Assembly (NCBI RefSeq): GCF_900129195.1
Contig: NZ_FQUY01000006.1
Span: forward strand, 62,001-126,000
Length of the DNA stretch: 64,000 bases
Reading direction: 5' to 3'
Source of the DNA: Desulforamulus putei DSM 12395
GTDB taxonomy: Bacteria; Bacillota; Desulfotomaculia; Desulfotomaculales; Desulfotomaculaceae
The translations under genes and the position numbers were made by a program. A model generated the notes under the pieces. That model had not been told where the DNA came from. It did no database searches and saw only the letters and a list, made by a program, of their open reading frames with translations. Numbering within the stretch: the first letter of the stretch is position 1; every line of letters begins with the position of its first letter. Positions 38,670-45,816 of the stretch are shown piece by piece.

Positions 38670-38761
38670 GGTCTTATTCTCCCTTCGTCCGATTGTGCGG
38701 ACTGCTCCGTGAAAATTACCTCAGGGTGCGAGCAACCTTCCACTTCATCGCTAGTCTAACT

Positions 38762-40931: not shown

Positions 40932-41576
40932 CTAGGCTTCCCGTTTTTCCAGGTATCTTTCCAGCTTGCGTTTCACCCTTTGCAGGGCATTGTCAATGGA
41001 TTTAACATGCCGGTTTAAATCTTCGGCAATTTCCTGGTAGGACTTTCCTTCCAGGTAAGACATAAGAACCTTCCATTCCAGAGAACTTAATATTTCACCC
41101 ATTTTCTCTTCGATATCATCAAATTCCTCCCGGCTGATGATGAGTTCCTCGGGGTCGGTAATTTTAGACCCAGAAATCACATCCAGCAGGGTACGGTCTG
41201 AATCTTCATCATAAATAGGTTTATTTAATGATACATAAGAGTTTAGCGGTATATGCTTTTGTCTGGTTGCTGTTTTGATGGCCGTAATAATCTGCCTGGT
41301 GATGCACAGTTCAGCAAAGGCACGAAAAGAAGAAAGTTTGTCCATGCGAAAGTCGCGAATGGCTTTATAAAGTCCGATCATGCCCTCCTGAATGATATCT
41401 TCTCTGTCGGCTCCGATAAGGAAATATGAGCGGGCTTTTGCACGCACAAAGTTTTTATATTTATTAATCAAGTACTCCAGCGCTGCGTCGTCGCCCTCAC
41501 GCGCAAACTCAACGACATCCTCATCTACCATAATCTGATATCCGCCGGAAACTTCTCTTTGTGCATTTGAACTCAA
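40932..41576 (-). CDS. sigH: RNA polymerase sigma-H factor
   Basis: Directs RNA polymerase to early sporulation and transition-state genes. The 214-residue protein has sigma region 2 (about residues 30-105: FVRAKARSYFLIGADREDII, then LCITRQIITAIKTATR) and region 4 (about 150-205: SYQEIAEDLNRHVKSIDNAL). These are nearly invariant in SigH. The start is TTG 41576 after GGGGGC; ATG 41531 is an alternative. A leader of about 240 bases with marked secondary structure precedes it. Confidence 0.96.
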   Translation of the reverse strand: MSSNAQREVSGGYQIMVDEDVVEFAREGDDAALEYLINKYKNFVRAKARSYFLIGADREDIIQEGMIGLYKAIRDFRMDKLSSFRAFAELCITRQIITAIKTATRQKHIPLNSYVSLNKPIYDEDSDRTLLDVISGSKITDPEELIISREEFDDIEEKMGEILSSLEWKVLMSYLEGKSYQEIAEDLNRHVKSIDNALQRVKRKLERYLEKREA

Positions 41577-41604
41577 AACTATCGCCCCCGCTTTCTTGTC
41601 TCTA

Positions 41605-41845
41605 GGAAACCACCAAACAGTCAGAAAAGCATGACTACGCTGTACCTTTCAGGCACACCTTCAGTGTTGTGTCCAGGAGTCTGTACACCCGTGGTTACGA
41701 GGAACCCGGTAGCTACAAGCCCCCCGCAAGGGTACGCTTTTCTTTTACCTGTTAATTGCAAAAGACGTAAAGTCTTACCATGGCACCCGGGGTCTGATTC
41801 ACCCATCCGCGAAAGCAGCTAAACAATTAACTGCTTAAGTTACAT
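41605..41845 (-). ncRNA. Structured leader RNA of sigH, family not recognised
   Basis: The expected transcript from the promoter at 41851-41880 starts about 41844 and runs about 270 bases before sigH. It can form GTTAATTG (minus-strand reading of 41824-41831) with CAATTAAC (41751-41758), an AAGAC/GTCTT hairpin at 41762-41776, a GGGT/ACCC hairpin near 41795-41812 and a G-rich 3' half. No terminator separates it from sigH. It does not match the TPP, SAM, FMN, cobalamin, c-di-GMP or c-di-AMP aptamer patterns I know. It could be a riboswitch or a stable RNA. Confidence 0.5.
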
Positions 41846-41850
41846 GACTA

Positions 41851-41880
41851 ATTATAGCCTATGTTAAAAAGGCTCGTCAA
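41851..41880 (-). promoter_or_regulatory. Strong sigma-A promoter for the sigH leader
   Basis: The minus strand reads TTGACG (41875-41880), an 18-base spacer and a perfect TATAAT (41851-41856). The start point would fall near 41844, at the edge of the structured leader. Confidence 0.75.
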
Positions 41881-41908
41881 GGCAAAATAAAGCCAAGCCT
41901 TGCGGACT

Positions 41909-43387: not shown

Positions 43388-44485
43388 TTAAAGCGGACAA
43401 GCACCACCACAACGCTCGCAACCTTTGGTTCTTTGGCCGAAAATACATGTACTATGTTCCCCTCTGTATTTTGCAATCTCCAGATCAACCGCATCGTCTT
43501 TAAGTATATGAATATCAATAATATGCGCAGCAATGCGAGCTGCTTTGACTGCCTCTATGGTAGATTCTATAGTTGGTGTTCCTCCTGTATGTTCTTCACG
43601 AGTAACAGCAGCAAGTATATGCGCACATCCTTCAAGACCGAGCAATGTTGCGCCAATGGCGGCAGACACATGGTCCATTCCAATTGCAATATCTGTAGGA
43701 ATTGGTCCAAGAGGCATCACAGGAAAATTACCCTCTCGCAGTATGGAAGCTATTTTTTTAATATCTTCTGGCCTTGCATGGCCCGGGGATTCAATAATAA
43801 CCCCAACACCATCCTTTGCAATCTTTTTAGCTAAATCTAGCTGAAATCTAATTTCTTTTTGTTGAGCCTCGTCATTGGAGTCAAAAATATTTGCCGAACG
43901 AAAAGTCGTCCCAATACTTATTACCGTCCCGTATTTTTTAGCCGCAGATATTAATTCCGGTAATATAGTTAAATAAACATTATCTTGCTTCCACCCTTTG
44001 ATTGCGGCATCCTGAAGAACAATCCCTCCGCCACGAGAGGTACAAGGTACCAAACGTTTTTGAGACAGTTCAAAAAGCTCTTTTGTTGGGGTTGGGTGGA
44101 TGGTTATGATTCCTACACCCTGTTCCATTTGTTCTAGGCAAATATCAAGAAGTTCATCTGAGGAGATTCCCCTGTTCCCAAATCTTACTACATAAACCGG
44201 AACAGTCGCAGCAATACAACCAGTCTCCATAATAATCTGTAACCATAAGGGTTTTTTATTTCTTAATCTTATTATACTCAAGTCGCTTATTATATCTGGA
44301 CCATCTAACATGGAGCTTAATAATTCAATTTTTCGTAATTGTAACTTATAACAATCCTCGTTATTTGCTCCTATTAAGGCTGCCACTAAGGTTTTTCTCT
44401 TTCTACCCGCCTCGATCCACCCATTTTTAAATCTCAGTTTAACTATAGATGTATCCTTTATCGATGTAGAATTTTTTCTATACAT
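43388..44485 (-). CDS. Divergent ThiC-family (phosphomethylpyrimidine synthase-like) protein
   Basis: A 365-residue homologue of ThiC, the radical SAM enzyme that makes the thiamine pyrimidine from AIR. Family landmarks are visible but altered: EQMEQGVGIITIHP, TSRGGGI, FRSANIFDSNDEAQ, ESPGHARP (usually EGPGHVP), LGPIPTDIAIGMDHV and REEHTGG. The two histidines that bind metal in ThiC are kept. The C-terminal cluster motif is CERCGGAC (CX2CX3C) where ThiC has CX2CX4C. It lacks the N-terminal region of standard ThiC (usually 430 residues or more). Its start overlaps the end of the SIR2-SLOG gene by 28 bases. Codon use is A/T-rich. A true thiamine role is doubtful, and the substrate is unknown. 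Confidence 0.75.
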   Translation of the reverse strand: MYRKNSTSIKDTSIVKLRFKNGWIEAGRKRKTLVAALIGANNEDCYKLQLRKIELLSSMLDGPDIISDLSIIRLRNKKPLWLQIIMETGCIAATVPVYVVRFGNRGISSDELLDICLEQMEQGVGIITIHPTPTKELFELSQKRLVPCTSRGGGIVLQDAAIKGWKQDNVYLTILPELISAAKKYGTVISIGTTFRSANIFDSNDEAQQKEIRFQLDLAKKIAKDGVGVIIESPGHARPEDIKKIASILREGNFPVMPLGPIPTDIAIGMDHVSAAIGATLLGLEGCAHILAAVTREEHTGGTPTIESTIEAVKAARIAAHIIDIHILKDDAVDLEIAKYRGEHSTCIFGQRTKGCERCGGACPL

Positions 44486-45816
44486 GAAATAACATCCTCA
44501 GTTTTAACACAAAAACGTTTTGCCTTTTCAAAATAATCCTTATCAACTTGTTCCAAAAAGTCCGATATTTCCCGGTCCCCAAGAATTTGTTTCATAAATT
44601 CAGTCTCTTTTTGTGCTACCGGAATTATTTTGCATTTAAATGCTCTGGCAATTTCAAACTCTACAGAAGTACCAATCCCCCCGTCAAATACAACCACTAC
44701 TTGGGTGGCATTAAAAAGCTTGGCCCTCAATCTTTTTAACTCTGGGATTAACTTCGGATTATCTGAAAAATCAGGGTTAGCTGCATAAGGATTAGGGAAA
44801 GTGTGGAGTCGTTCAGTAATGTCCATTTTCCGTTCTATACATTCTTCTGTAAATGACGCCACAACATCGCTCCCTATCCCAGAAGATTGACCACTGTGTA
44901 ATACTATATTTTTTATATTTGCAAGACGTTTACCAATCTCCCGTGCCATCGGGTCACTCACTTTATGTGACCCCGTACAATAAACTGTATTACCACGAGA
45001 TTTACTACTAACTTCAAATAAAACCTCTTTTAATTCATCGTAATGATCAATTAATACACAATTTATACCAAAACGCCTTAAGTCTTTACACCAAAGAAGC
45101 TGTCTTTTTTCTTCTTCTTTATTTTTTTTATTTCCTTTAATCCTGTCCAAGACCATAAAGTGTTCTTGAGTTGCTCTTTGACAAAGACGTCTAGCTTCCA
45201 CCATAATGTTTCTTAAATTAGGATCTCTGTAACTATATCCAATAAATAAAAATGATTTGGTAGATAAATCGTTTTCTAATCTTTTTGCAGTAGCTGGTCG
45301 ATTTACCAGAAAGTCTTCATAGTCTTCTTGAGTTATAACTAATTCGTTCTGAGGTGAACTACTAATGCAACCGTGCATTTTAATGAGTTCAATTTGATGC
45401 TTTAAGACTGGTCGTGAAATAGCACCATCATTATTCTTAACGACCAAATCAAAATTTCTAAACGCCTTTTCGAGAAGTGTGTCATAATTTGTGGTCCAAA
45501 TGGTTGATATTCTAGTAAGAGTGAGTGCCTGATGGTATATATTTAGGGCGTATTCTTTATTTAAACAACGAATAATTTCATTAATTAGCGGTCCTCTATT
45601 TCCTGCATATAAGTTAACTATATATTGAGCAATCAAGGGTAGCTCGTCATCTCTTTTAATTTGTATGCCCAAATTTTCAGAAAAAGGTTGAAGTAACCCA
45701 TACCAATCTACACCACAGGACTCCTTTGATATTCCGCTTCCAACAAAGATTGCACCACGGTTTTCATATAAAGCTTTTGAAAACCTATTTATTAAATACT
45801 TCTTATCACAAATCAC
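44458..45816 (-). CDS. SIR2-SLOG protein resembling Thoeris ThsA
   Basis: A 452-residue protein. Residues 1 to about 270 are a SIR2-like NADase domain (FVGSGIS at 24-30, WTTNYD with Asn110, KMHGC with His148, FIGYSYRDPN at 191-200). Asn110 and His148 correspond in position and motif to the ThsA catalytic residues. Residues from about 276 are a SLOG domain (VYCTGSHKVSDP, SGIGSDVV, FDGGIGTSVEFEIA), which in ThsA binds the signal nucleotide. ThsA has about 476 residues and works with a TIR protein; none is seen here. GTG 45816 follows GGAGGAGGG at six bases. Defence by NAD depletion is inferred. Confidence 0.8.
   Translation of the reverse strand: MICDKKYLINRFSKALYENRGAIFVGSGISKESCGVDWYGLLQPFSENLGIQIKRDDELPLIAQYIVNLYAGNRGPLINEIIRCLNKEYALNIYHQALTLTRISTIWTTNYDTLLEKAFRNFDLVVKNNDGAISRPVLKHQIELIKMHGCISSSPQNELVITQEDYEDFLVNRPATAKRLENDLSTKSFLFIGYSYRDPNLRNIMVEARRLCQRATQEHFMVLDRIKGNKKNKEEEKRQLLWCKDLRRFGINCVLIDHYDELKEVLFEVSSKSRGNTVYCTGSHKVSDPMAREIGKRLANIKNIVLHSGQSSGIGSDVVASFTEECIERKMDITERLHTFPNPYAANPDFSDNPKLIPELKRLRAKLFNATQVVVVFDGGIGTSVEFEIARAFKCKIIPVAQKETEFMKQILGDREISDFLEQVDKDYFEKAKRFCVKTEDVISCIEKILHR

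Follow-up and report, generated by a model that had tools for sequence, protein, structure and literature searches.

SigH controls the decision to sporulate, and attenuators built on intrinsic terminators are a known class of leader terminators in Firmicutes. For sigH itself, the transcription start in C. difficile was assigned to a SigA promoter in the available part of PMC7438776, and the available parts of that paper and of PMC3649979 describe no sigH leader element. Leader terminators are thus of a known kind; a sigH leader of such a kind was not found in Rfam 15 or in the open-licence literature, and we found no description of how sigH is regulated in the spore formers considered here. 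In the following, the sigH leader of Desulforamulus putei DSM 12395, located in a 64,000-nt stretch of contig NZ_FQUY01000006.1 (hereafter the window), is compared with the sigH leaders of its order, that of Desulfotomaculum and relatives.

The sigH locus in the window

The sigH gene begins with a TTG codon at 41576 on the minus strand (Table 1). Its protein aligns with the sigH products of relatives over the entire length, and one sigH match per genome was found in each of 41 genomes. The genes upstream are yacP (NYN_YacP) and a gene encoding a SpoU-type methylase. In the same neighbourhood, upstream of the gene for the SpoU methylase, two genes with a 28-nt overlap occupy 43391-45816 (minus strand). 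One encodes a ThsA-like SIR2-STALD protein (best PADLOC model ThsA1/ThsA, E 6e-82) and the other a protein of the ThiC_Rad_SAM family (365 aa); together they would be an odd, possible defence pair. Additionally, an S10-Clostridia ribosomal leader lies at 38685-38756 (minus strand), with a score equal to the Rfam gathering cut-off (35.1 of 35.1).

Table 1 Features of the sigH promoter, leader and gene in the window
Feature	Position	Strand	Basis
Sigma-A type promoter of sigH, TTGACG-18-TATAAT	41851..41880	-	Sequence and order comparison
sigH 5' leader as delimited here, 268 nt, running from 6 nt past the -10 box up to the last base ahead of TTG	41577..41844	-	
5' hairpin AAGCAGUUAA/UUAGCUGCUU, predicted	41813..41836	-	MFE and centroid fold
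GGGU..ACCCCGG hairpin, putative equivalent of P2 in the genus	41787..41804	-	Word shared by nine leaders
Putative terminator-hairpin remnant AAGAC-UUUAC-GUCUU, followed by UUG only	41759..41776	-	Sequence; terminator score 0
Additional leader stretch separating the terminator remnant from the 3' block	41640..41755	-	Leader comparison
Ribosome-binding block GCGGGGGCGAU ahead of the TTG codon, conserved	41581..41591	-	
sigH (RNA polymerase sigma-H), TTG start	40932..41576	-	Sigma70_r2 and Sigma70_r4_2

A first-pass annotation made from the sequence alone had placed about 240 bases of structured RNA before sigH. The window's own leader does not bear this out: its predicted minimum free energy was -86.9 kcal/mol, whereas 200 dinucleotide shuffles averaged -80.4 (z -1.32) and 18 of them folded at least as well. 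Because this energy is ordinary, an unusual structure was not confirmed in this genome.

Among the 41 genomes searched at the DNA level, a full-length match to the leader was found in its own genome only, and two genus mates matched over just the last 55-61 nt. The leader insert occurs once in the window's genome, without a second copy, and the only phage match was of E 0.3 over 36 nt; a mobile or repeated insert was therefore rejected. A leader peptide was likewise considered. The 61-aa open reading frame at 41621-41806 has no Pfam match and no clear relative among 20 relatives (next best E 0.015), and a leader-peptide attenuator was rejected because this frame is not conserved.

Since the DNA search with the leader reached few genomes, sigH upstream regions were collected across relatives. 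The earlier sets comprised 41 genomes and 80 loci from named genomes. The order sample comprises the 106 of 113 genomes with a sigH match at E<=1e-60, the remaining seven standing outside the counts.

One promoter form precedes sigH throughout the order

In the window, the -35 hexamer TTGACG (41880-41875) and the -10 hexamer TATAAT (41856-41851) lie on the minus strand with a spacer of 18, and 11 of the 12 letters agree with the consensus. The promoter named in the first-pass annotation proved to be sigH's own and very strongly conserved: TTGAC[G/T]-17/18-TATAAT was found upstream of sigH in 106/106 order loci, whereas allowing up to one mismatch turned up a promoter of this form in only 5 of 2120 shuffled upstream regions. 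Taken as a trait of the family, the order-wide sigH promoter is far above chance.

The sixth base of the -35 hexamer was G in 79 order promoters (TTGACG) and T in 27 (TTGACT), and A or C in none (n=106). At 36 other TTGAC-N18/19-TATAAT sites in the window's genome, the sixth base was A in 18 and G in 3. The exact TTGACN..TATAAT form was present at 67 of the 80 sigH loci from named genomes, with G in 36, T in 26, C in 4 and A in 1. A promoter fixed across the order, yet without A as the sixth -35 base at any locus (0/106), calls for explanation.

Conservation of the -35 region extends beyond the hexamer as CTTGAC[G/T] (41870-41881, minus strand, in the window), a tendency seen across the order's sigH promoters. 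Among order promoters with a spacer of 17, a C preceded the -35 hexamer in 75/77 and a G occupied the second base past it in 58/77. This extended conservation suggests an overlapping binding site or a tuned promoter strength.

Relatives' leaders carry a predicted terminator

The length of the sigH leader in the order varies between 38 and 307 nt. In many families the leader is short and lacks a terminator altogether; it measures 38-53 nt in families f17, f7, f4, f2, f6 and f15. The leaders of f8, f9, f16, f5, f11 and part of f1 contain a U-run, in most cases broken by a single base, which starts 38-92 nt ahead of the start codon and mostly 41-61 nt ahead of it. In f8 this distance is 41-61 nt, in f16 it is 44-54, the window's genus has 43-51, and the range is wider in f5 and f9. 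The U-run is preceded by a predicted long-range stem, P1, which encloses a hairpin, P2. The strands of P1 are of the GCCUU..AAGGC type in f8, f9 and f5 and of the GCCC..GGGC type in f16, and those of P2 are CYGGG..CCCGG.

In f8 leaders such as L123, L143, L189 and L124, the CCUU motif of the P1 5' arm is repeated just upstream, for example as CACCUUGAACAAUGCCUUAACC in L124. Two f5 leaders (L012 and L121) reach 266-272 nt, with apparent extra hairpins inserted inside P1.

Terminators were scored in 76 leaders of at least 90 nt from ten families, with a hairpin required directly before the U-run; f10 (L031) stood outside this set. The score was above zero in 63/76 leaders, and 47/76 beat at least 29 of their 30 dinucleotide shuffles. 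By family, the latter were 19/24 in f8, 9/9 in f9, 8/15 in f16, 6/7 in f5, 1/1 in f11, 2/10 in f1, 1/4 in f3, 1/2 in f12, 0/3 in f14 and 0/1 in f18. For L175, the leader length of 103 and the zero score are artefacts, because the leader was cut short (its sigH match starts at residue 27); L034 and L010 are identical in sequence, and so are L015 of f16 and L037, the cultured relative Desulfoscipio geothermicus, in which the leader element is intact. Relatives' leaders are thus predicted to hold an intrinsic terminator between promoter and start codon, beyond what shuffles give.

Covariation of the leader element

Two covariance models were built, R1 from 12 f8 leaders and one f1 leader (13 in all) and R2 from 10 of the 15 f16 leaders. 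Both were searched against 99 order sigH loci (193 kb, both strands), the seven f17 loci, with leaders below 50 nt, being left out. R1 gave 36 matches at E<=1, all of them sense-strand sigH leaders, including f9 and f5 members outside its seed. R2 gave 24 matches, 15 in f16 and nine outside it at E 0.0024 to 0.42, among members of f12, f5 and f8 and at L175 of f1.

In genome-wide searches of 113 genomes, R1 matched 25 genomes at E<=0.001, once each and always just before sigH. R2 gave 17 matches at E<=0.01, of which 15 lie before f16 sigH genes; the remaining two, at E 0.0044 and 0.0099, are weak and lie elsewhere. Across 398 genomes of the phylum, R1 gave one match, inside the order; this search was of low sensitivity because only 11 candidates per genome were scored, and known members were missed.

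In the R1 alignment (35 distinct rows), changes on both sides were seen at 7/13 pairs, and 87.0% of cells paired, compared with 82.0% in shuffles and 61.8% or 71.9% when partners were slid by one. The R2 alignment (24 rows) showed changes on both sides at 9/12 pairs and pairing in 91.4% of cells, compared with 82.7% in shuffles. For both models, none of 500 shuffles reached any of the five measures, and slid partners paired less; since the alignments were fitted to their models, the pair counts lean towards structure. The predicted P1 and P2 stems thus covary in two family groups, in relatives only. Comparison of sigH upstream regions, which had been proposed along with the structured leader, accordingly yielded a covarying leader element across the order.

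Retained and lost parts in the window's genus

Neither R1 nor R2 matched the sigH leader of the window or those of its eight genus mates. With filters off, the sole match touching a genus leader was that of R2 on L009 (E 4.5), straddling the start codon. L175, from another genus of the same family, scores well with R1 and retains an f8-type element, and loss of the element in the window's genus is therefore the simpler reading.

All nine genus leaders have the promoter, a slightly varying form of the 3' block GAAAGCGGGGGCGAU and the word ACCCCGG (9/9). This is the sole word of at least 6 nt common to them outside the last 26 nt, and none of 500 shuffled leader sets shared any word of 6 or more. 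With the GGGU or GGU that precedes it, ACCCCGG would close a small hairpin in the position of P2, and we infer that this hairpin descends from P2. For the first-pass annotation, to which a lack of conservation in close relatives would have been adverse, the outcome was divided: the middle of the leader is not conserved, and the promoter, the ACCCCGG hairpin and the 3' block are.

Six of the nine members (L006, L007, L009, L010, L011 and L192) have a U-run terminator, its U-run 43-51 nt before the start. In L009 and L192, a compact hairpin of the AAGAC..GUCUU type is followed by a long U-run. The terminator score was 0 in the window (L004), L005 and L008. The extra stretch of about 115 nt in the window has a similarly placed, much diverged counterpart in L005 and is absent from the other genus mates; over the whole leader, the window and L005 are identical at 151/269 columns. 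L010 and L011 carry a different insert of about 75 nt between the promoter and the ACCCCGG hairpin, unlike the downstream segment of the window and L005.

Alternative explanations

The first-pass annotation had stated that the leader fits no known aptamer, and the Rfam searches agree. No family, including 6S, raiA and c-di-AMP/ydaO, matched the window's leader at gathering thresholds; at E up to 10, the only match was a chance snoRNA one inside the upstream gene, with none in the leader, and at E<=2 the sigH leaders at 19 relatives' loci had no match. No Rfam family thus accounts for the leader. The window's genome holds two 6S matches above the family cut-off (89.6 and 81.4 bits), and since both sit on other contigs, 6S was excluded for the sigH leader. 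A ligand-binding riboswitch, as the annotation had put forward, would usually take the outer form seen in relatives, a terminator with a conserved hairpin in the leader. However, the conserved part amounts to a short hairpin enclosed by a terminator stem, and its loops and junctions vary in length and sequence; because a conserved aptamer-like core is lacking, and with Rfam blank for the window and the 19 relatives, we regard a riboswitch as very improbable. The stretch from promoter to terminator might instead be a small RNA in its own right, about 100 nt long, that lies before sigH by chance, with sigH read from another promoter, and the U-run terminator with the P1/P2 fold would indeed end a discrete RNA. 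Against this, no second promoter was found: in 76 leaders of at least 100 nt, the best promoter-like matches inside the leader were as in shuffles, with two mismatches in three leaders (shuffle mean 2.3) and three in 18 (mean 16.2), so that a second promoter within the leader was rejected. Moreover, the families with leaders of 38-53 nt carry the same promoter directly before sigH, and at E<=0.001 R1 was never found away from sigH in 113 genomes. The lack of a second promoter and the position of the promoter in short-leader families make a separate small RNA rather unlikely.

Two further readings concern the window's genus. ACCCCGG might act as a translational switch, either forming the GGGU..ACCC hairpin or pairing with, and thereby hiding, the GGGGG run of the ribosome-binding site. 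It is the sole long word common to the nine genus leaders outside the 3' block, and it was the preferred partner of GGGGG in 6/9 of them, with a pairing probability of 0.71 in the window. However, overall pairing of GGGGG was not above shuffles (0.72 against 0.74 in f1), and in other families the 3' strand of P2 partnered GGGGG in only 1/45 leaders. Sequestration of the ribosome-binding site was therefore rejected as a general feature, and because neither strand varies in the genus, the ACCCCGG-GGGGG pairing offers no covariation; we consider such a switch unlikely. Alternatively, the window's leader might be an untranslated spacer behind a good promoter, with no regulatory structure left: its fold energy is ordinary, its terminator score is 0, neither R1 nor R2 matches it, and its middle is not conserved. 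The ACCCCGG hairpin, kept in 9/9 genus members, speaks against a plain spacer, which we accept as a serious possibility short of an even chance.

A putative transcription attenuator before sigH

On the comparative evidence, the sigH leader element is probably a transcription attenuator, and the window's leader a decayed or rewired descendant of it. Throughout the order, a single, unvarying sigma-A promoter would drive sigH. In families with long leaders, P2 (CCGGG..CCCGG) would fold, P1 would then close around it, and the polymerase would stop at the U-run ahead of sigH, with part of the transcripts reading through. If the polymerase can stop before sigH, read-through would set the supply of SigH. 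Termination would perhaps be relieved by a factor or by an alternative pairing. In the window's genus, a local terminator hairpin would have taken the place of P1. The U-run is absent from the leaders of the window, L005 and L008, and its loss would make the window's leader a decayed or rewired descendant, one that retains the promoter together with the ACCCCGG hairpin and the ribosome-binding block. We infer from these sequences that termination at the sigH leader may occur in vivo and may be regulated.

An upstream antiterminator hairpin was rejected, because capture of the P1 5' arm was not above shuffles (pairing 0.41, 0.63 and 0.57 against 0.42, 0.60 and 0.56 in f8, f9 and f5). The A-rich junction between P1 and P2 (J1/2) paired with the U-run at a mean of -6.0 kcal/mol, compared with -4.5 expected from composition; 6/36 leaders fell below p 0.05 (median 0.25). 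This pairing is weakly above composition and is taken as a lead only.

In its widest form, the proposal is that a previously undescribed attenuator gates sigH, and thus entry into sporulation, across the order, and that the window's genus is remodelling it, in some lineages towards hiding of the ribosome-binding site by the ACCCCGG strand; we put this forward tentatively and judge it somewhat doubtful. A conserved terminator in the sigH leader would mean that the sporulation decision is gated at transcription elongation, and the element offers a definite RNA to test.

Among known systems, 6S RNA (RF00013) is a stable RNA that is comparable in size to the leader and likewise follows a sigma-A promoter; the genome's 6S matches lie elsewhere, and the sigH leader is unmatched. 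With C. difficile sigH the locus shares a SigA-type promoter, there with a mapped start, whereas no leader terminator or structure is reported in the available part of that paper (PMC7438776). The element is like the known attenuators of Firmicutes in having its own promoter, a hairpin and U-run shortly before the gene, and a covarying stem. It differs from them in that no ligand, leader peptide or antiterminator pairing was found, in that the terminator has been lost in the window, and in that the gene it precedes is sigH.
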